54,291 nucleotides of DNA from Methanocalculus chunghsingensis (GTDB lineage Archaea > Halobacteriota > Methanomicrobia > Methanomicrobiales > Methanocorpusculaceae). The translations under genes were made by a program, and so were the position numbers. Below, one piece after another: positions 34,301 through 48,306 of this stretch. The DNA lies in contig NZ_JWHL01000016.1 in assembly GCF_018132105.1 (NCBI RefSeq), forward strand, positions 1 through 54,291, read 5' to 3'. How positions within the stretch are numbered: position 1 is the stretch's first letter; each line of letters starts with the position of its first letter. The notes below the pieces were generated by a model that worked only from the letters and a program-made list of their open reading frames with translations, did not search any database and had not been told where the DNA came from.

Positions 34301-35487
34301 TCCGGGTACTTGAATGGGCGGCTGACGTGGCTGCCCTTGCCATACTGCAGAAACAGGCTGACGATCTCCTCCGCAGACATGCCAAAGAGATCACTGCAGC
34401 ATACGAGGTCCTCGAAGAGCGGGTGAGGGAGCGGACAGCGGATCTGGAAGAGGCGCTCCATCAGCAGAGGATCGCAGAAGAGAGATTTAAAACACTCTTC
34501 CGTGAGATGCTCGACGGATTCGTCCAGCATGAGATCATCTTTAATGAAAAGGGGAAGGCTGTGGATTTCCGGATTACCGCCGTTAATCCGGCTTTTGAGA
34601 AGATGATCGGTATCCCTGCAGATGATATGGAAGGCCAGACGATTCTGGATCTTCTCCCTGAACTCCGGGACTCCTGGGCAGATATATTCCAACAGGTGGC
34701 GGATACCGGAGTCCCGGTCATCTTTGAGAACTGCCTCTCCGATAACCAGCGATGCTTTAAGGTCTCGGCTTTCCGACCGGAACCGGATCAGCTTGCATGC
34801 ATATTTGAGGATATCACGGAAGAGAAGAGGATTGATGAAGAGATGAGGAGATCTCTCCTTGAGAAAGAGGTGCTCATCAAAGAGATCCACCACCGTGTGA
34901 AGAATAACATGCAGGTCGTCTCAGGCCTCCTGACGCTCCAGAGGAAAAATATCAATGATGATACTATCCGGAAACTCTTTTTGGAGAGTGAGAGCCGGAT
35001 CTTCTCACTCGCACTCGTCCATGAGAAGCTCTACCAGTCAAAGAGCCTCTCGCGGATCGAGTACGGGCAGTATCTCTCGACGATGGGAGATTATATCCTC
35101 GGGCTGAGTGAGATCGGCTCTGATGCAGTCTCAATTGAGATTGATGCCCCAGATATCTATCTCTCGATTGAGAAGGCTGTTCCTCTCAGCCTCATCACCA
35201 ATGAATTCATTATGAATTCCTTGAAACATGCCTTCCCTGATGGCCGGAAAGGGAGGATCATCCTCGGGATGAAACGGAAGAGGGATACAATTGTGTACCG
35301 ATATCATGATGATGGCGTTGGCGTACCGGCCGGAGTCGATTATGCAGAAACTTCCTCACTTGGGTTACAGCTGGTTAACAGCCTTGTCATTCAGCTGATG
35401 GGGACAATCTCTATGAACCGGGATCAGGGTACTACCTTTATAATAACATTTCCTGTTGCACCAGATGGAGAGAATCAAAATGAATGA
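31342..35487 (+). CDS. REC-GAFx3-PAS-GAF-PAS HisKA_2-type histidine kinase
   Basis: 1381 residues, soluble. A receiver at 10-130 (D62; the usual MPGM loop is replaced by 'LLSGMHG') is followed by three homologous GAF domains, each with an EWC motif ('NTHEWCREG', 'NISEWCADD', 'NTHEWCAEG'). A PAS_3 domain comes next ('HPDDIPDVTRI'), then a fourth GAF of another type ('GSCGSAAYLRDRVVVADI'), a coiled coil and a last PAS. The kinase is HisKA_2/HWE-like: 'EIHHRVKNNMQVV' with H1184, N-box 'TNEFIMNSLKHAF', 'DDGVGVP' and 'SLGLQLVNSLV'. It thus differs from the TRHD kinases elsewhere in the window. It overlaps the downstream response regulator by 8 bases, strongly suggesting a cognate pair. Confidence 0.92.
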   Translation: MNTPGAGHQQYTLLYIDDEPALLEIGRLFLERSGDFIVTTVGSAEDAVRLLVDHRFDAIVSDYLLSGMHGIDLLRHLRSTGDTTPFILLTARGREDLVIEAVDEGVDYYVQKSGSPSAWSADLIRKIHDAIVRRRMRAGIDNRQTFQDSLMRIAAGFVGQEDFDTVMNEALSEIGTFSGASRSYIFLFRQDQPVMDNTHEWCREGVSHEMENLQGIPRASVPWWMERLTRGEDIRIPKISLLPNEASAEKELLLAQGIESLIVLPLTVKGLLIGFIGLDNVFSGWGWSDEDIRLLRISANLIAGAIERERKQHDLQVMNAELQAAEEEMRVQLDELVETHTALWKSERHLKHRLAFEKVIGRISSSFVHCNDADPAADQALAEFGAFCHASRACIIVLRESEQFMDNISEWCADDLSPVINPLQGIPADACPWLMEKMRNNEIIHITETSRMPPEAIAEKKLLLSQGIQAMIVLPLLIKGGFIGYIGLEYAATPRKWSDEDLELLRIASELFASAIEQRRSDLLLRRRMEFEHLITTISSAFVGADPSDTDDLINDTLVSIGRFTGVDRAYVFLLKENGDTIENTHEWCAEGIRPEIQDLGNLAYLEVMPWFTEKILNGEIVSVSDINKLPGDALSERRYCGMHGVQSLILLPIRIGRRIFGILGFDSVRTIRTWTEDDQTLISIVSDIIAHAINKREAALALRESQERLQMALSASGTGMWELDLPSMSLSFDDHAAAIFGYNDGRFFAESIDWKRFTHPDDIPDVTRIINDYLEGRRTLFETEHRMRHGDGTWIWISGIGKITRWHPDGLPLRLSGTLHDITRRKEMDEALHKREELERNKNRILTMLVMQEDLDLILDAIVLQMERSDPSIHGSILLFDEARQCLVHTSAPNLPDEYNALLQPGLPIGPDVGSCGSAAYLRDRVVVADIRNSPRWTPYPDFVRVTEKYGLLACWSQPILTSDGKLLGTIANYADAPGEPDEANLRVLEWAADVAALAILQKQADDLLRRHAKEITAAYEVLEERVRERTADLEEALHQQRIAEERFKTLFREMLDGFVQHEIIFNEKGKAVDFRITAVNPAFEKMIGIPADDMEGQTILDLLPELRDSWADIFQQVADTGVPVIFENCLSDNQRCFKVSAFRPEPDQLACIFEDITEEKRIDEEMRRSLLEKEVLIKEIHHRVKNNMQVVSGLLTLQRKNINDDTIRKLFLESESRIFSLALVHEKLYQSKSLSRIEYGQYLSTMGDYILGLSEIGSDAVSIEIDAPDIYLSIEKAVPLSLITNEFIMNSLKHAFPDGRKGRIILGMKRKRDTIVYRYHDDGVGVPAGVDYAETSSLGLQLVNSLVIQLMGTISMNRDQGTTFIITFPVAPDGENQNE

Positions 35488-36370
35488 ACCTGCTATATTG
35501 ATCGTTGAAGATGAAGCTGTTACGGCGATGGTTCTCAAGACAAGCCTGACAGAGATGGGGTATTCTGTATGCGGTATTTCCGCGACAGGAGAGCGTGCTG
35601 TTGAGATGGCCGGCGAATTACGCCCGGATCTGATATTAATGGATATTATGCTCGCCGGGAAGATGAACGGAATCGAGGCGGCAGAGCAGATCAAGGAAAA
35701 ATACCGGATACCCCTGATCTTCCTGACCGCATTCAGTGATGATCGGTACATCCATGAGGCCAAACTGACAGAACCGTTTGGATATATCCTCAAGCCTGTA
35801 CGGGAGCTTGAACTTAGGACAACCATCGAGATGGCATTTTATAAGCATGCGATGGAGAAGGTCGTCCGGGAACAGGCGGAGATTATCCGGGTGCTGTTGA
35901 ATGAGACCCGTGATCTCCATTATCTCATGGATAGAGACGGAACGATCCTGACTGCGAATGATGCCCTTGCGAAGCGGGTCGGTATCACGGCGGATGAACT
36001 GATCGGAACAAGCATCCATGATCTTGTCGCATCCGGACATCTCTCCCCGACGATGGCCGCATCAAAACTTCCCTCCCTTGTGAACTGTTGTTCGCTCCGC
36101 TTTGAAGAAGAGTTTGGCGATTGCTGGTTTGATATCGGGATTCATCCGGTCAGCGGCCCGGATGGAGCGATCTCCCAGTATGCAGTCCATATTCATGATA
36201 CATCCCGTGTCAAGGCGATGGAAGGGAAGATGCGGACACTCTCAGAGCTCCTGATGAAGACGCTTTATCCGCAGAAGGGTGAGGATGATGTCAGCCTGGA
36301 TGATCTCCAGGGAGCCGAGGAACTGGATCTGGTTATCAGAGAGATGAAAGAGTCTGATCCTTTCCGGTAG
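35480..36370 (+). CDS. REC-PAS response regulator
   Basis: 296 residues. The receiver at 1-120 has D55 in 'LILMDIMLAGKMNGIEAA', the PdtaR/HWE-associated type in which 'LAGKMNG' replaces MPGMDG. A PAS domain follows at about 140-245 ('HYLMDRDGTILTANDALAKRV'), then a helical tail. No DNA-binding, cyclase or methylesterase domain is present. The ATG at 35480 follows GGAGAG and lies inside the end of the upstream kinase gene, so the two are coupled. It is the natural acceptor for the kinase at 31342; the PAS domain may be the output by dimerisation or ligand control. It converges on ribB. Confidence 0.88.
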   Translation: MNEPAILIVEDEAVTAMVLKTSLTEMGYSVCGISATGERAVEMAGELRPDLILMDIMLAGKMNGIEAAEQIKEKYRIPLIFLTAFSDDRYIHEAKLTEPFGYILKPVRELELRTTIEMAFYKHAMEKVVREQAEIIRVLLNETRDLHYLMDRDGTILTANDALAKRVGITADELIGTSIHDLVASGHLSPTMAASKLPSLVNCCSLRFEEEFGDCWFDIGIHPVSGPDGAISQYAVHIHDTSRVKAMEGKMRTLSELLMKTLYPQKGEDDVSLDDLQGAEELDLVIREMKESDPFR

Positions 36371-36420: not shown

Positions 36421-37110
36421 CTACCGGGACTGCGAGGCTTTCCAGGCCTGCCATGCCTCGATGATCTCCTCGCCGGTCACAAACGGGAACCCGTGATCCT
36501 CTCCATAGGCCCGTGCCTTCTCCTTCTCAAGGGCGTTGCCGGTCTCGTCGTCGAGCATCTCGCAGACGGTGACTGCGGGAGTTATCCCCGCCATCAGGGC
36601 GAGGGCGATCGAGAGCTCGGTCTGCCCCTGCCGCTGGTCAAGGAGGTCGTCTGCAGCACGGAGGAGGGCCGAATGGCCGGGTGTCCGGAACTCTTTTCCA
36701 AATGGGGGGAGGCTGCCGCCGTTCATTGCCGACCGGACATGCTCTGCGATCTTTGAGATGGTGAGGGCACGATCATGGTCGGTGATCCCGGTGAAGGTCT
36801 CCCGGTGGTTCACCCAGAGGGAGAAGGAGGAGTGATTCTTCCGGTCATAGGGGATCTCCCCTTCCTTCTCGCCAAGTTCCCCGCAGCGGGAGAATACATC
36901 CGATGCAAACGGGAGACCGAGTGCCTTTGCCGCATCCGGGTGAACCGCCGTACAGATCAGGCCGCCTCCGTCCTTTCGCATCCTGAGGATATCGTTGTGG
37001 CGGATGGTATCGGATCGGATCACGAGATCGGTCTCACGTTCACGGTTGTCAAAGTCATAGATAAGGACGAAACGTCCTTCTTTCAGTGCTGTTATTGCTT
37101 CATGCATCAT
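36421..37110 (-). CDS. ribB: 3,4-dihydroxy-2-butanone 4-phosphate synthase
   Basis: Makes the four-carbon precursor of riboflavin, and hence of F420-type deazaflavins and FAD/FMN, from ribulose 5-phosphate. 229 residues, the single-domain archaeal type. Signatures: the acidic metal-binding loop 'DFDNRERETDLV' near 19-30, 'SSFSLWVNHRETFTGITDHDRA' near 93-114, 'RTPGHSALL' and 'QTELSIALALMAGITPAVTVCE'. The start overlaps the ribK end by 11 bases, so the two flavin genes are coupled. They stand at the far end of the leftward chemosensory gene string. Confidence 0.95.
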   Translation of the reverse strand: MMHEAITALKEGRFVLIYDFDNRERETDLVIRSDTIRHNDILRMRKDGGGLICTAVHPDAAKALGLPFASDVFSRCGELGEKEGEIPYDRKNHSSFSLWVNHRETFTGITDHDRALTISKIAEHVRSAMNGGSLPPFGKEFRTPGHSALLRAADDLLDQRQGQTELSIALALMAGITPAVTVCEMLDDETGNALEKEKARAYGEDHGFPFVTGEEIIEAWQAWKASQSR

Positions 37111-37777
37111 ATCCGACCTCTACATCGATGGTATCGTTATCGTCAAGCCCGATTTCATTCCTGAGAGGGACACCGGATATCAACTCAATGATATCCTCAG
37201 GATAATGTGTCCTGCCAGGAACGATGAGTGCGCAGGGAATCCCCGCAATCCGGCAGGGAAGGCAGCGTGCCTCCCCAAAGGTCCTGTGCTCATCTGAAAA
37301 ACCCGGAATGGTTATCCATTCGAGCGAATCCAGCCTCTTCCGTATAGGAATGCTCTGCTGGTTCAGTCTGATGTTTAATGTTCCGGGGAAGGGTTCAAAC
37401 CCGCAGTTCATCCGGAACTGATCCCGGTAATGGGGCAGGGACATATAGTACCGCCCCTCTCCGAGGCCCGAGATGATCGTTCCCTGAAGAATGAAGTGCC
37501 CGCCGACGCGGGTGAATATCCGGCAGTATTCGGCATGTTCCCTCCTGAGAATCTCCTCGCCCGGCTTCGTCACCGTCACCGACTGGCCAGAGGGATCGAC
37601 CGTCCGACTGATGAATCCTGCCGATTCAAGAGCTTTTAAACGGCGGGATATAGTCTGGGGGCTTGTTCCAAGGGTGGAACCGAGGCTCTGTGTCGATACC
37701 CGGACCGGGCCGCGGCATCCTCCGAGGAGGGCGATCGCCTTTAAGACCGGGAGATCTCCCGCATCAGACACCTGCAT
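37100..37777 (-). CDS. ribK: CTP-dependent riboflavin kinase with N-terminal HTH domain
   Basis: Archaeal RibK phosphorylates riboflavin with CTP to give FMN. The C-terminal 130 residues match ('GTIISGLGEGRYYMSL', 'FEPFPGTLNIRLN', 'LPCRIAGIPCALIVPGRTHYPE', 'IELISGVPLRNEIGL'). The first 90 residues are a winged helix ('STQSLGSTLGTSPQTISRRLKALE'). That fusion is known in archaea, where such proteins can also act as regulators of riboflavin genes. Coupled to ribB by an 11-base overlap. It starts 19 bases after the GNAT-type gene. Confidence 0.94.
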   Translation of the reverse strand: MQVSDAGDLPVLKAIALLGGCRGPVRVSTQSLGSTLGTSPQTISRRLKALESAGFISRTVDPSGQSVTVTKPGEEILRREHAEYCRIFTRVGGHFILQGTIISGLGEGRYYMSLPHYRDQFRMNCGFEPFPGTLNIRLNQQSIPIRKRLDSLEWITIPGFSDEHRTFGEARCLPCRIAGIPCALIVPGRTHYPEDIIELISGVPLRNEIGLDDNDTIDVEVGYDA

Positions 37778-37796: not shown

Positions 37797-38831
37797 CTAC
37801 CTATTTATGGATATCGACTCGTGCAGAATAGCAGGCCTTCCCGAGGATCGGCGCATCGGAGCCACCTCGGCCCCTTCCATATTCCCTGCCGCCCAGAGGT
37901 ACCGTTCGCGGACCGAGGCCGGGAGATCCCCCTCAGGTATCGGGACGAATCCATACTCGCCGTAGAATTTCCTGAGATGGACAACCGCATACATCGTCAG
38001 TTCATCATTATAGCATGCCTCGACGAGAGCCGTCATCACCTGCCGTGAGAGGCCACGGCCACGGTGGATCTCCGGGGTGAAGACCGCATCCACTTCGTAG
38101 CCGTCCGGATGGCGCCTGCACCGGGCGAGGGAGACGATCGCATCCCCTTCACATGCGGCAAAAATCCGGTCGACTGCGGGGTCGCCGGTTGTTCCATGGT
38201 AGTCGATCCAGACGATATTTGCATCCGGGAACTCATCTGATCTGATCTCGCGGACCTCGGCTGCCCCTCCGCTGAGATAGGGGATGAAGACCGGAACTCC
38301 GGCAGCGAGGATTGTATCTGGTTCACCTATCCGTTTCGGGATGACGATCAGTGTCGGATCATGCCCTGATACGAGACGAAGGATATCAGTGGTGAGGTCT
38401 CCCGTCATCTTTTCGCTGGTGATGGATGCAGGCGGTGCATGCAGCAGCATCCCCCGGCCGCTCTCCCCCTCTGCAAGGAGGATGATTTCGGGGGGATAGT
38501 GCTGATCAAGGAATACAGCGGCAACATCCTCCGCACTCTTCCCAGAGAAGACGCAGATGAGAGGACGGTCGGTGATGAGCCGATCATCTTTCTTCAGATC
38601 AGATGGAATAAGCAGGATATCGACGGGATCCTGCAGATGCTCTCCGCCCGGTTCCGTGATGATGAGCGTCGCTTCTGATATCGCCCCGGAATCCAAAATC
38701 CTGATACCCGGGAGAACAGGTGCCTCTCCTGCCTGCCATATCACCTCGCGGACGCCTGGAATCCTCGCGATGAGTCGGGAAATGTCTCTCCTCTCTCCCC
38801 TGATATCGATGAGAATACGTCGTGGATCCAT
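37797..38831 (-). CDS. GNAT-family N-acetyltransferase-like protein with unknown N-terminal domain
   Basis: 344 residues. The C-terminal 150 residues form a GNAT fold: 'FTPEIHRGRGLSRQVMTALVEACY' is the acetyl-CoA-binding motif A, and 'KFYGEYGFVPIPEGDLP' is the closing segment. The first 190 residues are an alpha/beta domain with Rossmann-like strands ('ILLIPSDLKKDDRLI', 'PPEIILLAEGESGRGMLL') that I do not recognise. The substrate is unknown. Placed between a membrane histidine kinase (14 bases) and ribK (19 bases), it may belong to either unit. Acetylation of a chemosensory protein is conceivable but not supported by any motif. Confidence 0.8.
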   Translation of the reverse strand: MDPRRILIDIRGERRDISRLIARIPGVREVIWQAGEAPVLPGIRILDSGAISEATLIITEPGGEHLQDPVDILLIPSDLKKDDRLITDRPLICVFSGKSAEDVAAVFLDQHYPPEIILLAEGESGRGMLLHAPPASITSEKMTGDLTTDILRLVSGHDPTLIVIPKRIGEPDTILAAGVPVFIPYLSGGAAEVREIRSDEFPDANIVWIDYHGTTGDPAVDRIFAACEGDAIVSLARCRRHPDGYEVDAVFTPEIHRGRGLSRQVMTALVEACYNDELTMYAVVHLRKFYGEYGFVPIPEGDLPASVRERYLWAAGNMEGAEVAPMRRSSGRPAILHESISINR

Positions 38832-38845
38832 TCTCTCCTCCCCTG

Positions 38846-40234
38846 TTATGTAATGCGGTATCCTTCCTGTGGCACCAACAGGACGAACCGTGCTCCCCGC
38901 CCGCTCTCCCCTTCTTCATGAATGTCGATCCCGGTGATGCCAAGGATCTCGCGGGTGAGGAAGAGTCCGTGGCCTGATCGTTCGGTACTCTCAGCAAAGA
39001 GTCTCTCTTTCTCATCATCCGGGATGCCGGTCCCGTTGTCCTCAAGAATGATGGCACACCCGTCATCCCGGATCTGGTAGGTGACAAGGAGGGCAGTCGC
39101 CCCTGCTGCAATGGCATTCTCGATCAGGTGGGAGATGGCAGTCCGGAGATGCGGGTCTGAGAAGATGGAAAGCCGTTCCGTCCAGGGATGTACCACCATT
39201 CCTCTGGTGTCAAGCCGGGCAGTCGCCTGATGCACCGTCTCCTGGACCGGCATCCAGACCGGAGGAATCATTCCGATCTCCCGGAAATCCCGTGATATGG
39301 CAATCTGCCGCCGTATCCCGTCTGCCGAATCCTCGATCTTTCTGAGGAGCGAGAGCGAGGCAGGGTCATTGATCTGCATGCTCCCGATGGTCAGATGCCG
39401 GTAGAGCTCCTCAAGACGTTTTGAGAGGCCGTGCCGGATGATCCCGCTTAAGGTTGTCAGCTGACGGTTGGTGTTTCTCAGGGCAGATCGTGCCATCACC
39501 TCACCGGTGATATCGCGGATCGACTCAACCGCACCTGCAACCTCCCGGTCAGGGCCATAGAGCGGCGTTGCCACACACCTGAGATGGGCTCCCCGGCCTT
39601 CATTGAGTCCGGGTGCGATCATCTCCGCCTCGACTGCATCCCCATCTCTTGAAAGCCGCTCATACGGGGTTTCACTATCAGGATCATTCCTGAGTGCGTA
39701 ATCGATAAGGATCGCCCTCTTCTCCCCATAGAAGGGAACCGCATACGCATACTCTCCCTGTCCGATGATCTTCATCTTCGGAACTCCGGTCATCTTCTCG
39801 ATGGCACGGTTCCATGCGATGACCCGCCCCTCCCGGTCGATGGCGAAGGTGGCGTCAGGAAGGAACTCGATGAGGTCATGGAGCTGCTCCTCGGATTGCC
39901 GCAGCCTGATCGTCAGGAATGAGACGACGAACCCGATGGTAATATAGACAGCTGATCTGGCGAGGATGGAGAGGGTGACACCGAGGTCCGATGGGGTGAG
40001 GAGGAGGGCCGCACCTGCATAGGTGGCTGCGATAAGGATGGCGATTGCGGCTCCACGCCTCGGGTACCAGTATCCTGCAAGAAGGATCGGAAGATAGAGG
40101 AGATGGGGGAAGACATAGGTGATCCCCTGGAGGAGCCCGATGATATTTGCGGCAAGCGTGATGGCGATAGCGGCGAAAATAATTATGATCCGCCGCTGCT
40201 CGACCGGTTCGTTGAAGAATGGGTGGCTCCGCAT
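38846..40234 (-). CDS. Membrane PAS histidine kinase with altered H-box
   Basis: 462 residues. About four transmembrane helices at 15-110 are of the same type as in the kinase at 4761 ('LLYLPILLAGYWYPRRG'). A PAS domain follows at 120-245 with the 'GQGEYAYAVPFYG' variant. The H-box reads 'SGIIRHGLSKRLEELY': H268 is kept, but the D and N of TRHDxxN are replaced by G and K. The ATPase has 'IENAIAAGA', 'EDNGTGIP' and 'GHGLFLTREI', so nucleotide binding looks intact. Phosphotransfer efficiency is therefore doubtful. Last signalling gene of the leftward chemosensory string, 18 bases after the decayed REC-kinase. Confidence 0.88.
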   Translation of the reverse strand: MRSHPFFNEPVEQRRIIIIFAAIAITLAANIIGLLQGITYVFPHLLYLPILLAGYWYPRRGAAIAILIAATYAGAALLLTPSDLGVTLSILARSAVYITIGFVVSFLTIRLRQSEEQLHDLIEFLPDATFAIDREGRVIAWNRAIEKMTGVPKMKIIGQGEYAYAVPFYGEKRAILIDYALRNDPDSETPYERLSRDGDAVEAEMIAPGLNEGRGAHLRCVATPLYGPDREVAGAVESIRDITGEVMARSALRNTNRQLTTLSGIIRHGLSKRLEELYRHLTIGSMQINDPASLSLLRKIEDSADGIRRQIAISRDFREIGMIPPVWMPVQETVHQATARLDTRGMVVHPWTERLSIFSDPHLRTAISHLIENAIAAGATALLVTYQIRDDGCAIILEDNGTGIPDDEKERLFAESTERSGHGLFLTREILGITGIDIHEEGESGRGARFVLLVPQEGYRIT

Positions 40235-40252
40235 CGGTCTCTTCTCCCTTCC

Positions 40253-41482
40253 TTATCCGGATCGGTGCTGGATCGATCCGGTTGGGCAGCGGATCTCAAA
40301 CCGCCCTCCCTGCCGGGGGTCTCCTGTCTCAACGAGGCCGATTCCGGTGATTGCAAGCGCTTCCCGTGCCAGGAAGAGGGAGAATGCCTTTCCGATCCCA
40401 AGCTCATAGGAGAAGAGGGCATCTTTTCCGGCGAGGGGAATACCGATCCCGTCATCCTCAATGGTGATCACCCCTGTATCCCTCTCCCCGGAGTAGGTGA
40501 TCGTCACCTTCCCGGCCCTCCTCCGGGCTGCATCGGTGATGATCGCCCAAACCGCCTTCTCACCGACGGGATCAAGGTAGAGGAAGAGATCACCTGGAAC
40601 CCGTGCATCAACAGCCACACCTGCTGTATCTTCCGGTAGAATCTCTGTAAAGCGAAGCCATTCGGGTTGGCTCTCCCCGATCTTCTGGTACTCCTGGGTG
40701 AACCGGGTCGTCTGGATCGCACGATCGATCCCTCCGGTTGCTGTCCGGAGATGGTCGCGTGCCGCTTCCGGTTCCCGGTCAAGGACCCTCTCAGCATATT
40801 CAAGTGACTCATGGATCGAGGAGAGCTGTGTCAGGAGTCCGTGGCGGGTGATGCTCGTGAGAAGCGTCAGTTTCCGGTGGGCTTCTGCAAGGGCTCCCTC
40901 GGCACGCTCACGCTGGACGATCTCTGCCCTGAGATCCTCGTTCTTCTCCTGAAGCTGTTCATTGAGTCCATAGAGTTCGTCCCGTGCTTCTTCGAGATCC
41001 GCGTTCTTCCGGACCGCAATCGCATAGGTCGAGAGAAGAATATCGAGGATCGTCTTCTTCGCAGCGGTGATGGAGTACTCCCGATCCGAGATGATGATCG
41101 AGAGCTCGTCACCCTCCTCTTCCTTTCCTCTCTCAAAGACCTCCCTGACCCGTCCAAGGATAAATGCAGGATCAAATGGCTTGATGATGAAGTTGTCGGC
41201 ACCGCATGCAACCCCCCGGATGACATCCTCGGGATCAAAGAGCTGGGTGACGAGGAATACCGGTATCGTATTCATCTCTTTGATCCGGCGGCAGAGCTCA
41301 TACCCGTCCATCCCGGGCATCACGATATCGCTCAGAACCAGATCCGGGGGATCGTCCCGTATCAGTCCGAGTGCCGATTCTCCATCGGCAGCGGTGGTGA
41401 CGCGATATCCGTCCCCTTCGATGATCCGTCTGAGATACTCGGTCTGGGTTGTACTGTCCTCGACGATGAGAATATGCTTCAT
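40253..41482 (-). CDS. REC-coiled coil-degenerate histidine kinase (probable pseudokinase)
   Basis: 409 residues, clearly a paralogue of the next gene. The receiver (1-120) is intact with D52 ('VLSDIVMPGMDG'). A helical section ('ARDELYGLNEQLQEKNEDL') leads to 'LTSITRHGLLTQL' with H214, where the D and N of the H-box are lost. In the ATPase region the N-box asparagine is gone ('VWAIITDAARRRAG'), the DxGxG box remains ('EDDGIGIP') and the G2 box 'GLGLFL' has become 'GKAFSLFL'. ATP hydrolysis is thus unlikely. It may act as a receiver-controlled adaptor or decoy for its active sister. Gaps to neighbours are 12 and 18 bases. Confidence 0.9.
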   Translation of the reverse strand: MKHILIVEDSTTQTEYLRRIIEGDGYRVTTAADGESALGLIRDDPPDLVLSDIVMPGMDGYELCRRIKEMNTIPVFLVTQLFDPEDVIRGVACGADNFIIKPFDPAFILGRVREVFERGKEEEGDELSIIISDREYSITAAKKTILDILLSTYAIAVRKNADLEEARDELYGLNEQLQEKNEDLRAEIVQRERAEGALAEAHRKLTLLTSITRHGLLTQLSSIHESLEYAERVLDREPEAARDHLRTATGGIDRAIQTTRFTQEYQKIGESQPEWLRFTEILPEDTAGVAVDARVPGDLFLYLDPVGEKAVWAIITDAARRRAGKVTITYSGERDTGVITIEDDGIGIPLAGKDALFSYELGIGKAFSLFLAREALAITGIGLVETGDPRQGGRFEIRCPTGSIQHRSG

Positions 41483-41494
41483 CCCTCTCTCCTC

Positions 41495-42772
41495 CTATCG
41501 AAACCGCCCTTTGGGAATCCTGATCTCAAAACAGGCTCCTTCTCCATACGTCCCGATCTCGGATATCCCAAACTCGCATGTTGCAAGTATCCTGGATGCA
41601 AGGAAGAGGCCAAGGCCGGTATTCTCTCCATATCCCTGTTCAAAGATTCGCTCTTTCTTATGGGGGGGTATTCCGATACCGTCATCGGTGATTCTGATGC
41701 AGAGGTCTTTCTCTATCTCAGCGGTGATATGGATTGTTGTGACCTTCTTCCCGTGGCGGATGGAATTTTCGATGATGGTTGCAATCACCGTCCCCATCAA
41801 TGGATCTGCGAGTATCTCGAGATCCGGAAGGCTGGCTGTCACTGATATACCACCAAGATCGATGAGTGCCATGGCATCCCCGGCCAGATCCGAGAGACTC
41901 AGCCACTCCCGGTCGCATGATCCGATCTCCTGGTAATTCCCGGTAAATTCGATGATTTTTATAATTCGGCGGGCCGCCTCCCGAATCCGTGTGAAGGCCG
42001 CCTCGGGAGATACTATTCCGTCACCCCCGGAGGCGAGCTCAACAAACCCTTCGATGACGGTGATGTGGTTTCTGATATCATGCCGGGTGATGCTTGTGAG
42101 AAGATGGAGTTTCTCATGGGCATCGATGAGGGCATCCTCGATCCGCTGCCGCTCATCGATCTCATGCTGAAGGTCGTCGTTTGCCTGGTGCAGCTCCTCA
42201 ACAAATTCCTGGAGCTGTTCATTCACCCCATAAAGTTCGTCCCGGGCCTCCTGCAGTTCGATATTCTTTCTGACTGCAGTTGCATAGGTCGAGATGAGGA
42301 CACGAAGGATCTGATCCTTTCCTGCGGTGATGGTGTAGGTCTTCTTTCCAAAGGTTGCGTCCACCTCATCATTTCTGGAGATGATATTCTGCATTTTCCC
42401 GAAGCTGAGGACATCGGCGACGGTATCGACGAGGTAGTCTGCATCGAAGGGCTTGATGATGAAGTTCACAGCACCGCATGCGAGGCCGCGGACGATATCC
42501 TCTGGATCAAAGAGCTGGGTGAGAAGAATGACGGGGATCCCATAGCGGTCCCGGATCTCACGGCAGAGCGTATATCCATCCATTCCCGGCATCACGATAT
42601 CGCTGATGATGAGATCGGGCGGCTCGACCCCGACACAGGTGAGTGCGGTCTTTCCGTCGATGGCAGTGGTGACACGGTACCCTGCCCTGAGGAGGATCTG
42701 GCGGATATACTCGGCCTGTGTGGGGCTGTCCTCGACGACGAGGAGCCGTATATCCCCCGGATTATGCTCCAT
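41495..42772 (-). CDS. REC-coiled coil histidine kinase
   Basis: 425 residues, soluble. The receiver (1-125) has D58 in 'IISDIVMPGMDG'. A 90-residue helical linker includes 'ARDELYGVNEQLQEFVEEL', shared with the adjacent paralogue. The H-box 'TSITRHDIRNH' (H231) and ATPase motifs 'IENSIRHGKK', 'TDDGIGIP' and 'GLGLFLASRI' are all intact. There is no PAS or membrane domain, so its main input is the receiver, most simply phosphorylated by the CheA-REC protein encoded just upstream. It overlaps that gene by 11 bases. Confidence 0.9.
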   Translation of the reverse strand: MEHNPGDIRLLVVEDSPTQAEYIRQILLRAGYRVTTAIDGKTALTCVGVEPPDLIISDIVMPGMDGYTLCREIRDRYGIPVILLTQLFDPEDIVRGLACGAVNFIIKPFDADYLVDTVADVLSFGKMQNIISRNDEVDATFGKKTYTITAGKDQILRVLISTYATAVRKNIELQEARDELYGVNEQLQEFVEELHQANDDLQHEIDERQRIEDALIDAHEKLHLLTSITRHDIRNHITVIEGFVELASGGDGIVSPEAAFTRIREAARRIIKIIEFTGNYQEIGSCDREWLSLSDLAGDAMALIDLGGISVTASLPDLEILADPLMGTVIATIIENSIRHGKKVTTIHITAEIEKDLCIRITDDGIGIPPHKKERIFEQGYGENTGLGLFLASRILATCEFGISEIGTYGEGACFEIRIPKGRFR

Positions 42773-44963
42773 GCCTGCTCACGTCCCTGACCACCCTGAG
42801 GAATGCATCCTTTTCAAACATACTCTTGATAATATAGGCATCTGCACCGAGATGTATTCCATACTCCTGATCCCCTGGCGAGTCGAGTGATGTCACGAGG
42901 ACGACCGGCAGAGCAGACAGGTGTGTACTGCTCCGGATCGCCTCGGTGAGAGCGAACCCGTTGACTCGCGGCATATCTACATCAGATACCACAATATCGA
43001 ACTCCTCCTGTTTAAGCCTTTGGAGTGCGTCCGCACCATCATAGGCACACTCGACAAAATATCCGGCATCTTCGAGGATTGCCCTGAGAAACTCCCGTGA
43101 GGTGACGGAGTCCTCGACGACGAGGACCCGCCCGGTTGCCGGGTCCAGTCTCCCACCCCGTCCCTCTCCACGTGGGAGCGTCGAGATGATCAGATCCAGT
43201 GGGTCGATGACGAGTGCCACACTTCCATCCTCGAGGATCCCGGCACCGGCGATCCTGCGAACATGGCGGAGCTGGCTCCCCAGCGATCGGACGACGATCT
43301 CCTGGACCCTGATCAACTCATCGACGTAAATACCGAGCTTTCCCGCCCCTGATGCAAGAAGGACAACCGGAATCGGGCGTTCCGGGTCGATCTTCATGGG
43401 AGGGAGCTTCACGCCGAGCCCTCGTTCAAGGGGGATGAGCCTGATGAGATCATCGCCGATCCTGATCTCCTCTGCTCCCGGCTTCATCCTGATGACCTGG
43501 CGGACCTGCTGCATCGGGATGACGTACTTCCTCCTCCCGGCAGAGACGACGACACCCCGGAAGTTTGAGAGGCGGACCGGGAGATACATCCTGACGCAGG
43601 TGTTCTGTCCGGGTATCGAGGTGATGGCGACGTCTCCTCCAAGACGGGTGACTGCATCCTCGACGATCGCAAGGCCAAGACCTCGTCCCGAGAGCTCGGT
43701 CACATCTGGGGAGGTTGAGAGGCCTGACCGGAAGACGAGTTTCATGCTCTCATCATCTGAGAGGTTTCCAGCTTCTTCTTCGTTCAGCAGTCCCTTCTCT
43801 ATCGCAGATCTCCTGATTACACCGGGATCAATCCCTTTTCCGTCATCGGAGATGTCGATCCCGACCCTGCTTCCTGCAAGCGGGACGACCCGGATATGAA
43901 TCCTTCCTTTCGGATTTTTTCCTTTTGCAACCCTGGTTCCCGGATGTTCGATCCCATGATCGATGGCGTTCCTGATGAGATGGGTGAGGGGATCTTTTAG
44001 CGCCTCGAGGAGACGGCGGTCGATCTCGATCTCCCCTCCATCGACGGCGAAGTCAACCTGCTTCCCTGACGACCCCGCCACCTCCCTGATGAAGCCCGGG
44101 AAACTGGCAAGTATATGGGAGACCGGCAGAAGGACGGCATCATGAATGGTGTCTGCTATCACCTGGGTGCTTGACTCAAGAATATGCAGGTTACGGGCAT
44201 TCTCCTGGATATGCGTGGTGAGATCATGCCTGAGCGAATCGATGAATTCCCGGTTCTTCTTCTGGAACTTCAGGATTCGATCAAGGGCAACCCAGTCCTC
44301 GTATATCATGTCCCGATCACTTCTGAGAAGCTCCTCGATCCTCCGGAGATCGGTGGCGACCTGGACATGGGTCCATTGCCAGAGGGAGAACCGGATCATC
44401 ATCGCATCCAGTTCACGCATCCTGTGGCCCATCGAGAGGCGGGTGGTAAGGAGTTCGTCAGACCCGGTGATAAGCCGGTCCAGGGTCTCGTTTGCGATCC
44501 GGACGGTCCCGGTCTCCCGCAGACGAGGGAGCTCACTCCGGGTCGGGGTGGAGGCAGCCTTCTTCTCCAGAACGGCTGTCTTCTCACCTTTTACCGCCCG
44601 AAGTTCCCTGATGATCGCAACCGGCGACACCTTCTCACCGGCAAGGATCGATCGGATCAGGTGGATCGCACGGTGGAAGAGATCATACCCGGCGGCATCG
44701 GGGACGAAACTCCCGTTTCGTACAGCCGAGAGTGCCGTCTCAAGATGCTGGCAGACCGACTCGATCTCCCTGAGGGAGACGGCACGTGCTGCCCCCTTGA
44801 GGCTGTGCGTCCTCCGGTAGACAGATTCCGCCAGATCGGGATCGATCCCCTCTCCCCTCTCAAGGGCGATCAGCTCCCCGGTGATGGCAGAGAGATGCTC
44901 GTCGGCTTCGTCTCTGAAGGTGGCAAGGAGCGTCTCCCTGAGGTCGTCGTCGTTTCCCGGCAT
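42762..44963 (-). CDS. cheA: CheA-type hybrid kinase with C-terminal receiver (HPt-HATPase-CheW-REC)
   Basis: 733 residues. An HPt domain at the N-terminus ('YRRTHSLKGAAR', H53) is followed by a helical dimerisation region, a CheA-type ATPase ('LIRNAIDHGIEHPG', 'DDGKGIDPG', 'SGRGLGLAIV'), a CheW-like domain ('GVVVSAGRRKYVIPMQQV') and a receiver at about 610-730 ('IVVSDVDMPRVNGFAL'). The HPt-ATPase-CheW-REC order is that of WspE/FrzE-type kinases of non-motility chemosensory systems, where the fused receiver acts as sink or relay. No CheY, CheB or CheR is encoded nearby. It starts one base after the MCP stop and overlaps a REC-kinase gene, so all should be expressed together. Confidence 0.94.
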   Translation of the reverse strand: MPGNDDDLRETLLATFRDEADEHLSAITGELIALERGEGIDPDLAESVYRRTHSLKGAARAVSLREIESVCQHLETALSAVRNGSFVPDAAGYDLFHRAIHLIRSILAGEKVSPVAIIRELRAVKGEKTAVLEKKAASTPTRSELPRLRETGTVRIANETLDRLITGSDELLTTRLSMGHRMRELDAMMIRFSLWQWTHVQVATDLRRIEELLRSDRDMIYEDWVALDRILKFQKKNREFIDSLRHDLTTHIQENARNLHILESSTQVIADTIHDAVLLPVSHILASFPGFIREVAGSSGKQVDFAVDGGEIEIDRRLLEALKDPLTHLIRNAIDHGIEHPGTRVAKGKNPKGRIHIRVVPLAGSRVGIDISDDGKGIDPGVIRRSAIEKGLLNEEEAGNLSDDESMKLVFRSGLSTSPDVTELSGRGLGLAIVEDAVTRLGGDVAITSIPGQNTCVRMYLPVRLSNFRGVVVSAGRRKYVIPMQQVRQVIRMKPGAEEIRIGDDLIRLIPLERGLGVKLPPMKIDPERPIPVVLLASGAGKLGIYVDELIRVQEIVVRSLGSQLRHVRRIAGAGILEDGSVALVIDPLDLIISTLPRGEGRGGRLDPATGRVLVVEDSVTSREFLRAILEDAGYFVECAYDGADALQRLKQEEFDIVVSDVDMPRVNGFALTEAIRSSTHLSALPVVLVTSLDSPGDQEYGIHLGADAYIIKSMFEKDAFLRVVRDVSRHGA

Positions 44964-44964
44964 A

Positions 44965-47346
44965 TCAGACGTGGTACTGTTCGGTAATCTTCTTCAGCCG
45001 GATACCGAGTTCATGGAGATCTTCTGCGGTCTTCTCAGCCTTCTGGGTATTCTCAAGATTCTTCCGTGCAGCCTCCTGGATCTTCTCCATCGCATGGGAG
45101 ATACGGTCCATGCCGGATGCCTGTTCGGAGATGGAGTCTGCTATCTCATATGCTTCATTGGAGGAGTCGGCGATGGCAGTTGCAAGGACCTCAATCGCCT
45201 GCCGTGCCTCGGCGGTGAGCCGGACGGTATCCTCAACCGAGGATGATCCCCGATCGACCGATACGACGGTTCCTGAGACGCCACGCTGGATATCTGTTAA
45301 GATCGTTCTGATATGTGCAGTCGCCTGCTTTGACTGCTCAGCAAGATTATGAATCTCATGCGCAACAACCGCAAATCCTTTCCCAAACTCCCCGGCCTTT
45401 GCCGCCTCGATGGAGGCATTGACGGCGAGGAGGTTTGACTGCTCGGAGATGTCGGTGACGGTTGCGATGATCTCCCCGATGGCGGTACTCTGTTCCGAGA
45501 GCTTGACGACGTTCGTCCCGACGACATCCATCTGCCGCCGGATCTGGTTCATGCCATCAAGGATCTCCTGGACCGACCGTTGCCCGTCCTTGCTGACGAA
45601 GCTCGCCTTCATCGCCTTCTCGGTGACAGCCCTCGTCTTCTGATTGGCACGTTCGGTCTGGATACGCACCCCTTCGACCGAGTTTGAGGTCTCATCGACG
45701 ATCCGGACGGTCTGTGAACTCTCCTGGGAGAGGTGGGAGGTGACGGCGGAGATCTCGCTTGATGCAGAGGAGAGGACGGAGATTCCTTCATATAACTCCT
45801 CGGTGATCAGCTTCATCAGCCGGGAAAGCTCGATACCGATGGTGTTGAGTGCATCACGATATGCCACGAATTCACCGGCAACCGGGATATCAGGATTGAA
45901 TCTGGCGGTGAAATCCCCGGCGGCATAGTATCCGGCAAGCCGCATCGCCTCATTCACCGGCTCGGTGATCCGTTCAAGGGTCTTGTTGAACCCGACGATG
46001 ATCCTCCGGTAGCTCCCCCGGAAGGCCTTTTCATCGCCACGGACCTTGAGATCACCCGCCCAGGCGGCATCGGTCATCTTCAGGGTCTCTTTATGAAGAT
46101 GGTCAAGCGAATCCATCATCATTTTAATGGCAGGCCTGATCTCGTCCCTTTCATCCTGGATGGCGAATTTCTCGACATATTCGCCATTTGCGATCCGTTT
46201 GATATTGCCGACGATGTTCGTCTGGAGATCTTCTGCAAACTCGTCCATCGTCTGTGCCATTACCCCGATCTCATCCCGTCTGCTGATACCGAGACGGACA
46301 GAGAGATGTCCGTTTCTCAGTTCCTTGATCATCAGGACGACCTGCTGGAGGGGTTCAGAGATCGACCGTCCAAAGAGGATAGCAACGGCAGCACCGACGA
46401 TGATCGAGGCGAGCATGACGGCAACGAGCGTATCCCTGATGGTATTAATCGGCCCGGTGAAGTCAGCGAGATACGCCCTGGAGACGATATGCCAGTCGAG
46501 CGGCTCAAAGTAGGTAAAGACATCGATGATCTCGTTTCCATCGACGGTATGGTAGAGAATCCCCTCCTTCTCGGTGAGGGCTGTCTGGACGAGAGTCCGG
46601 TCGATCCAGTTCTCGCCTTCACTCGTCGGGTGGACGATGACGTTTCCTGCTCCATCGATGACTTTCATGTACCCGTTCTCACCTATGACGGTCTGCCGGA
46701 TACTCTTCCTGACGACATCGAGTGTTTCTTCTTCTTTGGTTCCGACGAAGAGGATCCCGATCACGTCGCCACGGCTGTTTGTGATTGGTTCATACGCGGT
46801 GACGTACTGGATCCCGAAGAGATCACGGGATCCATAGAATGTCTCCCCCCCGATGACCGAATAATCGAAGACATCCTGCGTCAGCCGGGTCCCGACGGCA
46901 CGCTCGCCATCTTCGCTGATGACGTTTGTCGCTATCCTGATTGCATGATCATCATAGACCTGGAAGACGGTCGCGGCTCCACCAACGAGCTCCTGCACCT
47001 GATCGACGATCTCGAAGTTATCGTTGACGACGTACCGCTGGTTTCCGGGACCGACCAGCGTCATCTGACCCTCGATGATCTCCGGGCTGCCGTGCTGGTA
47101 GAACTGCTGCCTCAGGACATTTAAGTCACTGTCAACCTTGTTTCGTGTCAGGGTGTAGACATCGTTTGTCCACCCTTTCATGTCATTGCCCTGTACCTGC
47201 AGCCGTGTCTCGATCTGCTGGGTGATGACGCCTGCCGAGCTTGTGTAGGAGACGACACCGACGAGCGAGGTCGGGATGATTGCAAGGAGGAGGCAGATGA
47301 CGAGGATCTTTGTTCCAACCTTCATGTTTGAGAAGAATGTTACCAT
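44965..47346 (-). CDS. Transmembrane methyl-accepting chemotaxis protein with Cache sensor
   Basis: 793 residues. TM1 is near 12-33. An extracellular Cache domain at about 40-300 (Cache_3/Cache_2 type: '[21 protein letters not shown]', '[17 protein letters not shown]', '[13 protein letters not shown]') should bind a small ligand. TM2 is near 305-330, followed by HAMP plus a second HAMP-like repeat and the signalling coiled coil. The tip near 630-665 reads '[20 protein letters not shown]', a variant (QS, VNAS) typical of Wsp-like receptors. It is the dedicated input of the downstream CheA-REC. One base separates the two genes. Confidence 0.94.
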
Positions 47347-47376
47347 GATATACCTCTCGGCGGTTTATGCTAGTTC

Positions 47377-48252
47377 TTACATCTCTCTTTCTTGATCACT
47401 GATTACCATCTCTGGATCGGTGAGAAGTGCTTTTCCATCGATGATCACAACATCCCCGGCAACCCCGATGAGATGGGTCCTCGGGATGGCGGTTCTGGTC
47501 GTTGCGTCAGGGAGGGGGCGTTTGAGCCGTGATGTTCCCCTGATCCTGTCAACGAGGAGGCCGAAGGTCATCTTCCCATCCGAGAGGATGATCACCCTGT
47601 TGAAGTCCGTCAGTCCGTACTCGGGGACCCTAAAGAACTTCCGGAGATCGATGAATGAGATGATCTCCCCCCGGACTGCGGCTATCCCGGTGATGAAGGG
47701 TGGTACCCCGGGTACCGGGGTGATCTCACCGGTCAGGATCACTTCGCGGACATACTGCATCCCGACGGCATACTCGACATACCCAAGCTGAAACCTCAGG
47801 ATCTCGGGTTTGTCAACAGATTCATCTGTTACTCTCATCTCTGAGAGAGCCGGAGCCCTCCCCCTGAGGAGATCGAGCGTCTCCTCATCATCCGGTGGGA
47901 GGGCACCATATACCAGTGGGATGAGCGAGAGATCATCGATGATGATGACACCATCCTCTCTGATTCTGGTTCCCGGAAGATTCCCCGGTGATGCCTCTTC
48001 CTCCGACCTGATACCCTCTATCCGATCGGCGATGAGTGCTATCTCATTCTCCCTGAGGGTGGTGATGATGAGAGAATCGGTCGCTTTTACCTGCCTGATT
48101 TCTGAGCCGATACTGGCGATTGGGATCTCCTCGCCATAGATGATGACGGTGCCCTTCTCCCGGACTGCAACCATCCGTGTGGTCGTCCGTACACGGTCAA
48201 GAGGGAGGGCATATCCTGTCGTGCCGACACAGAAGTGAAGATACTCTGTCAT
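47377..48252 (-). CDS. cheW: Double CheW coupling protein
   Basis: 291 residues made of two CheW domains: residues 1-125 ('YLHFCVGTTGYALPLDRVR', 'LIADRIEGI') and about 145-285 ('LRFQLGYVEYAVGMQYVREVI', 'VPGVPPFITGIAAVRGEIISFIDLRKFF', 'GLLVDRIRG'). The second is canonical; the first is more divergent. CheW links receptors to CheA; tandem CheW proteins can bridge array partners. It is the first gene of the leftward operon, with a TATA box at 48298-48306, and 30 bases separate it from the MCP gene. Confidence 0.92.
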   Translation of the reverse strand: MTEYLHFCVGTTGYALPLDRVRTTTRMVAVREKGTVIIYGEEIPIASIGSEIRQVKATDSLIITTLRENEIALIADRIEGIRSEEEASPGNLPGTRIREDGVIIIDDLSLIPLVYGALPPDDEETLDLLRGRAPALSEMRVTDESVDKPEILRFQLGYVEYAVGMQYVREVILTGEITPVPGVPPFITGIAAVRGEIISFIDLRKFFRVPEYGLTDFNRVIILSDGKMTFGLLVDRIRGTSRLKRPLPDATTRTAIPRTHLIGVAGDVVIIDGKALLTDPEMVISDQEREM

Positions 48253-48297: not shown

Positions 48298-48306
48298 TAT
48301 TTATAT
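48298..48306 (-). promoter_or_regulatory. TATA box of the chemosensory operon
   Basis: The minus strand reads ATATAAATA here, about 50 bases before the cheW start, putting the transcript start near 48275. All following leftward genes down to 36421 are spaced by 30 bases or less or overlap, so this may serve up to nine genes. A perfect inverted repeat CCACAC/GTGTGG (48363-48368, 48377-48382) lies further upstream in the divergent gap. Confidence 0.55.

Follow-up and report, generated by a model that had tools for sequence, protein, structure and literature searches.

The 54,291-nucleotide window analyzed here is contig NZ_JWHL01000016.1 of Methanocalculus chunghsingensis (order Methanomicrobiales), positions 1 to 54,291, and its minus strand carries a unit of six chemosensory genes between positions 48252 and 38846. 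The unit is read as a second, non-motility chemosensory system that lacks methylation adaptation, in which CheA would signal through kinases with an N-terminal receiver (REC) domain and a four-transmembrane (4TM) kinase-like protein to a GNAT acetyltransferase. Taken as a whole, this reading of the sequence stands at about an even chance. The host genome encodes MCR and is thus that of a methanogen; its CheF marks it as archaeal.

The first gene (47377..48252) encodes a double CheW coupling protein (CheW2) of 291 amino acids. Its N-terminal half is divergent and scores 20.9 bits against Pfam CheW, under the family cut-off; in the structural model, two copies of the beta-barrel pattern are seen, and the top PDB matches are CheW proteins. 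The second gene (44965..47346) encodes a methyl-accepting chemotaxis protein (MCP), a receptor of 793 amino acids with Cache_3-Cache_2, two HAMP domains (HAMP and HAMP_2), and MCPsignal. The third (42762..44963) encodes a hybrid CheA composed of Hpt with H53, the HATPase_c ATPase, a CheW-like domain, and a C-terminal Response_reg receiver with D661. These domains were assigned by Pfam. Both of the REC-kinases that follow, r1 and r2, contain Response_reg and HATPase_c. In r1 (41495..42772), the REC acceptor is D58, the phospho-acceptor is H231, and the N, G1, and G2 boxes are intact. In r2 (40253..41482), the REC acceptor is D52, H214 stands as R-H-G, Asp317 occupies the N-box, and the G2 box is broken. 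The sixth gene (38846..40234) encodes the 4TM-PAS histidine-kinase-like protein of 462 amino acids, with PAS and HATPase_c domains, H268 also as R-H-G, and intact ATP boxes.

The spacings between the six genes, from cheW2 to the 4TM-kinase gene, are 30, 1, -11, 12, and 18 bp. An earlier note, made from the letters of this DNA, had described six tightly packed leftward genes; all of the open reading frames are present at these positions with matching Pfam domains, and CheA H53, r1 D58, and r2 D52 had been correctly assigned. It also spoke of overlaps between genes, and only one junction out of five overlaps. The end that it placed at 38846 needs revision, as a seventh gene begins 14 bp past the 4TM-kinase gene. 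This gene (37797..38831, minus strand) encodes a GNAT acetyltransferase, the N-terminal part of which is USP-like and degenerate.

The MCP-CheW-CheA core is complete, with an MCP signaling domain, CheW, and a CheA that has the Hpt His, ATPase, and CheW domains. None of CheR, CheB, CheY, CheF, CheC, or CheD is encoded within the unit, which bears out the earlier observation that methyltransferase, methylesterase, and stand-alone CheY are missing, and no unit protein matches GGDEF.

The arrangement is not chance, because it is syntenic across many genera. The order of cheW2, mcp, cheA/REC, and REC-kinase, which the earlier note had made its critical point, recurs in relatives. CheA/REC homologs were found in 76 of the 232 genomes and 17 of the 40 genera of the order, and in a phylum sample of 393 genomes all of the CheA/REC matches listed (E <= 1e-80) came from this same order. 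Gene content, gene order, conservation, residue losses, and fusions are documented here by sequence comparison. Among 60 cluster neighborhoods, two forms were recognized. Type I, the form of the window, is composed of CheW2-MCP-CheA/REC-REC-kinase, usually followed by the 4TM-PAS kinase and GNAT, and is devoid of CheR and CheB. Type II, the sister form, is composed of CheW-CheR-CheW-MCP-CheA/REC-CheB-REC-kinase and thus also ends in REC-kinases. No CheR or CheB gene was found near any type I cluster examined; the CheB matches that tblastn gave at some type I loci were rejected, being due to the REC domain and not to the esterase. The type I CheAs form one clade (support 99/100). Rooted on a distant motility CheA, they nest within type II, which would imply a loss of CheR and CheB, although the root is unsure.

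The receptors carry a matching change. Residues 558-559 of the window receptor align with the EEVTS site of motility receptors, and this pair is EE or QE in 13/13 type II receptors and in 0/47 type I receptors, all 47 of which have a non-Glx residue after the E. One likely methylation residue has thus been lost along with CheR and CheB. The type I system is likely free of methylation adaptation, with other E/Q pairs remaining. The window receptor has no [EQ][EQ]xx[AST][AST] site, and some receptors of CheR/CheB-type clusters also lack this consensus; a search for EExxAS as sole proof of the absence of methylation was therefore rejected, and the aligned-pair comparison was used in its place.

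The window CheA has all of its catalytic residues, and no full copy of CheA departs from H53, the N, G1, and G2 boxes, or REC D661. The REC-kinase is the constant partner downstream of CheA/REC, or of CheB, in nearly all sampled clusters of both forms. Two type II clusters (L093 and L098) retain the REC on a kinase core of another type (REC-GAF/PAS-HisKA_2). Since the partner is constant even where its kinase core is swapped, the simplest wiring runs from CheA to REC-kinase, and this constancy is the chief argument for it. The REC-kinases keep the D, T, and K of the REC acceptor site, and in 43/45 first REC-kinases the His and the N, G1, and G2 boxes are all intact. Outside the window genus every catalytic box is kept (41/41). 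Both His losses occur in the window genus, which carries the second copy.

The two copies, r1 and r2, are sister clades (support 84/92) that arose by duplication of the gene in the window genus. Both are under purifying selection, as judged from dN/dS values of about 0.11-0.23. In all five genomes, r2 has the N-box N changed to D and a broken G2, while the His and G1 are kept; its His stands in the R-H-G context, where the acidic residue after the His is missing. Having lost the N-box Asn and the G2 glycine, r2 is unlikely to be a kinase alone, and its ATPase is likely catalytically dead. The earlier description of two REC-kinases with receivers joined to kinase cores is therefore right in its domains and does not hold for r2 as an intact kinase. 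The r1 His is lost in G014 (GAC, Asp) and in G013 (AAC, Asn), both of which keep the ATP site; the window species, G012, and G016 have an intact r1. These opposite losses suggest that r1 and r2 form a split, heteromeric kinase, at least in G013 and G014, with r1 giving the ATP site and r2 the His. The R-H-G motif is found at the phospho-acceptor of both r2 and the 4TM-kinase in the window genus (L133, L053, L055, L056, and the window).

A similar loss is seen in the 4TM-PAS protein. Among the 33 clusters that encode it, 20 copies lack the His, 3 have the His and have lost the ATP-site Asn, and 10 are intact. Pairs of 4TM-kinase and GNAT also occur without CheA; in these, the aligned His is gone in 11/11 examined, most ATP boxes are kept, and some have a His one position on, so that this loss calls for caution. 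Order-wide fusions of 4TM-kinase and GNAT without the aligned His include L143, L145, L147, L155, L156, and others, and several members of this family carry a conserved S-x-D-H-L-H/Q motif one position off.

The GNAT gene follows the 4TM-kinase gene closely. Of the 46 type I loci in which the sequence extends far enough downstream, 32 contain it, comprising 32 of the 33 with a 4TM-kinase and none of the 13 without one. The two genes overlap by 4 bp in several relatives and are fused in frame in at least five (L066, L073, L075, L076, and L105). In G165, REC-kinase, 4TM-kinase, and GNAT form a separate trio, and in G172 REC-kinase and 4TM-kinase run up to the contig end; the CheA core lies elsewhere in each genome. 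A wider family without CheA, made up of 4TM-kinase-GNAT fusions and of 4TM-kinase/USP-USP-GNAT pairs, extends through the order. This GNAT is encoded in 168/232 genomes of the order and was confined to this order in a search of 393 phylum genomes. The window protein matches Pfam Acetyltransf_10/_1, and its RGRGLSR motif is invariant at R257, G258, and G260. The fold of the GNAT domain matches ElaA and GCN5. The USP-like N-terminal part is shortened and degenerate by alignment, and the model has a mean pLDDT of 73. From this linkage, GNAT is the best-linked candidate for the output of the unit.

CheA proteins phosphorylate receivers. In the proposed mechanism, a ligand signal at the Cache domains would be passed by the MCP and CheW2 to CheA, which would autophosphorylate at H53. 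The phosphoryl group would then move to the REC of CheA itself, which is probably a sink or brake, and also to the RECs of r1 and r2 downstream. By synteny and by analogy with known systems, CheA most likely phosphorylates r1 and r2. Phosphorylation of the REC would set the state of a DHp/ATPase complex formed by the REC-kinases; in the window genus this complex would be a heteromer, to which r1 brings the ATP site and r2, with no working ATP site, brings the His. The complex would act together with the neighboring 4TM-PAS kinase-like protein, which is often His-less, and the most likely effector of that protein would be the adjoining or fused GNAT acetyltransferase. The wiring put forward earlier, from MCP to CheA to the REC of a second kinase, remains the simplest by synteny and is incomplete, since it omits GNAT, the defect of r2, and the REC-kinases that occur without CheA.

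Precedents exist for several of these steps. In Rhodospirillum centenum, CheA3 controls the hybrid kinase CheS3 by phosphorylating its REC1 (PMC3868531). The REC in CheA often acts as a phosphate sink (PMC10782961). Kinase-like proteins without catalysis, such as DivL and ChrS, can modulate partners, and heterodimers between related kinases have been reported (PMC9491836). A sensory part linked to a GNAT can control it, and a mycobacterial enzyme acetylates a USP (PMC8556138). The branch from REC-kinase to 4TM-kinase to GNAT draws on the analogies with DivL/ChrS and with the linked GNATs. In its fullest form, where the receptor array controls acetylation by way of CheA, a split REC-kinase, and a His-less membrane kinase-like protein with GNAT, the proposal is distinctly unlikely.

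Several points weigh against the proposed system. GNAT is missing from 14/46 clusters and from all genomes of genus g36, so it is not a universal output. REC-kinases of the same family occur with no CheA nearby and none found genome-wide at the search threshold (L191, L192, L194, and L195 in G055, G075, G180, and G186), and extra orphan copies also exist. CheA therefore need not be the sole input, and other kinases may feed the REC-kinases; a strict co-occurrence of REC-kinase and CheA was tested and fails on these orphans. The split kinase relies on two sister species, and r1 is intact in the window species. The genome also encodes several short stand-alone REC proteins (about 120-160 amino acids) that could be the true targets. 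Phosphotransfer, the dimerization steps, and the acetylation output are all steps that we infer from sequence.

These stand-alone REC proteins lend themselves to a rather unlikely alternative, in which the wiring from CheA to REC-kinase is right, the REC-kinase His phosphorylates a receiver or transcription regulator encoded elsewhere as the final output, and GNAT and the 4TM-kinase are a separate stress module that shares the transcript. The CheW2-MCP-CheA-REC-kinase core does occur without the 4TM-kinase and GNAT in 13 clusters, all of g36 included, and both REC-kinase-4TM-kinase-GNAT and 4TM-kinase-GNAT exist without CheA. However, the trio moves as a block, with GNAT directly behind nearly every 4TM-kinase of the clusters, and the loss of the His speaks against an ordinary phosphotransfer role for the 4TM-kinase.

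It is improbable that one kinase does not activate another at all and that, instead, the RECs of the REC-kinases are sinks only or r2 passes phosphate from CheA to another receiver as a Spo0B-like phosphotransferase. Such roles would fit r2, which keeps D52 and H214 on a likely dead ATPase, and a sink is the usual role of CheA-linked RECs (PMC10782961). The single-copy REC-kinases outside the window genus, however, all keep their catalytic boxes, which would be needless for a sink, and r2 has no acidic residue after its His. Very improbable is an action of CheA mainly through the motility CheY and CheF, with the operon as an extra taxis input: the genome does have a complete motility chemotaxis set (CheF, CheY, CheB, CheA, CheC, and CheD) beside archaellum-type genes on contig C12, but the REC-kinases of the unit are adjacent and conserved, and mixed arrays are unlikely because the sequence past the aligned tip segment has 110 residues in type I receptors and 125-126 in the three other MCPs of the genome (a hairpin 15-16 residues shorter in the window receptor), and because the tip is EIH in type I, EVK in those MCPs, and EIK or EIR in type II.

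Compared with known systems, the proposed CheA-to-REC-kinase-to-GNAT system is closest to Che3 of R. centenum, which also combines a CheA with a C-terminal REC and an N-terminal-REC kinase in one cluster (PMC3868531). Che3 has its own stand-alone CheY3 and CheB3, and CheS3 has further domains; the window unit is archaeal, is devoid of CheR, CheB, and CheY, and has two REC-kinases with complementary decay, plus the 4TM-kinase and GNAT. This bacterial precedent qualifies the earlier suggestion that a kinase-to-kinase cascade may be a new output. The ACF and Tfp classes share the CheA with a C-terminal REC and a likely non-motility role (PMC10782961), and differ in their output, which in the window would be REC-kinases in place of pilus regulators or a GGDEF protein. 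Wsp, of the ACF class, likewise joins a chemosensory core to a non-motility output, whereas the window unit has no GGDEF response regulator, CheR, or CheB. Archaeal motility chemotaxis (CheA-CheY-CheF), present on C12, has the same MCP, CheW, and CheA core; the window CheA is only distantly related to it, and the unit is without CheY, CheF, CheC, CheD, CheB, and CheR. DivL and the ChrS pseudokinase are also kinase-like proteins that have lost catalysis (PMC9491836), while the window unit has two paralogs in one operon with opposite losses, of the ATP site and, in relatives, of the His. In Type III GNATs (cAMP-GNAT and ACT-GNAT), a GNAT domain is linked to a sensory part (PMC8556138); in the window unit a membrane histidine-kinase-like protein takes the place of that part, and USP-like domains belong to the GNAT protein. 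Neither a histidine-kinase/GNAT unit nor this operon was described in the literature searched, a result that does not prove novelty. What looks new is the acetyltransferase branch, together with the complementary decay of the kinases; the CheA-to-REC-kinase cascade is not categorically new.

Most non-motility chemosensory systems have no known output, and the archaeal ones have hardly been studied. In this one order, natural variants number in the dozens: CheR/CheB may be present or absent, GNAT may be absent, separate, or fused, and the kinases may be broken in opposite halves. These variants make it possible to test a kinase-to-kinase relay as a general chemosensory output and the control of an enzyme by His-less relatives of histidine kinases without phosphotransfer. 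Should the GNAT branch be real, acetylation would be under the control of receptor arrays, and the literature searched describes no such output.

Upstream of the unit, a candidate archaeal TATA box, ATATAAA (48300..48306, minus strand, by inspection of the sequence), ends 47 nt before the first ATG. Sigma-70 promoter scans gave chance-level matches only, as expected for an archaeon. Downstream of GNAT are the riboflavin genes ribK (37100-37777) and ribB (36421-37110), both on the minus strand. In the window genus, ribK/ribB lie 19 bp downstream of the signaling unit and are probably co-transcribed with it; in other genera they lie outside the unit.

One genome of the window genus, G018, has an internal deletion (L134:7557-9290) that joins the front of the Cache-MCP to the last ~100 amino acids of r2. 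The deletion removes CheA, r1, and most of r2, and leaves CheW2, the 4TM-kinase, and the USP-GNAT intact. The join reflects either a true deletion in this strain or a misassembly. A natural receptor-to-kinase shortcut was rejected, as the joined part has no DHp domain or His. FlmD of C. testosteroni, considered as a REC-kinase precedent, was dropped because it proved to be a single-domain regulator.

Elsewhere in the genome, CheR is encoded on C15, and C23 encodes another CheR with two MCP-CheW pairs. The pairs on C23 (L015:4784-15195) are made up of two very long Cache-multi-HAMP MCPs, each with a near-identical CheW behind it, and are followed by a 4TM histidine kinase and then by the CheR, which is short and lacks the N-terminal domain. 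Within the window, 437-2350, near the left end of the contig, encodes a soluble receptor with PAS, HAMP, and MCP domains that belongs to the motility length class. Just past ribB, on the opposite strand, 35456-36370 encodes a REC-PAS protein, the REC of which best matches a PhyR-type model.

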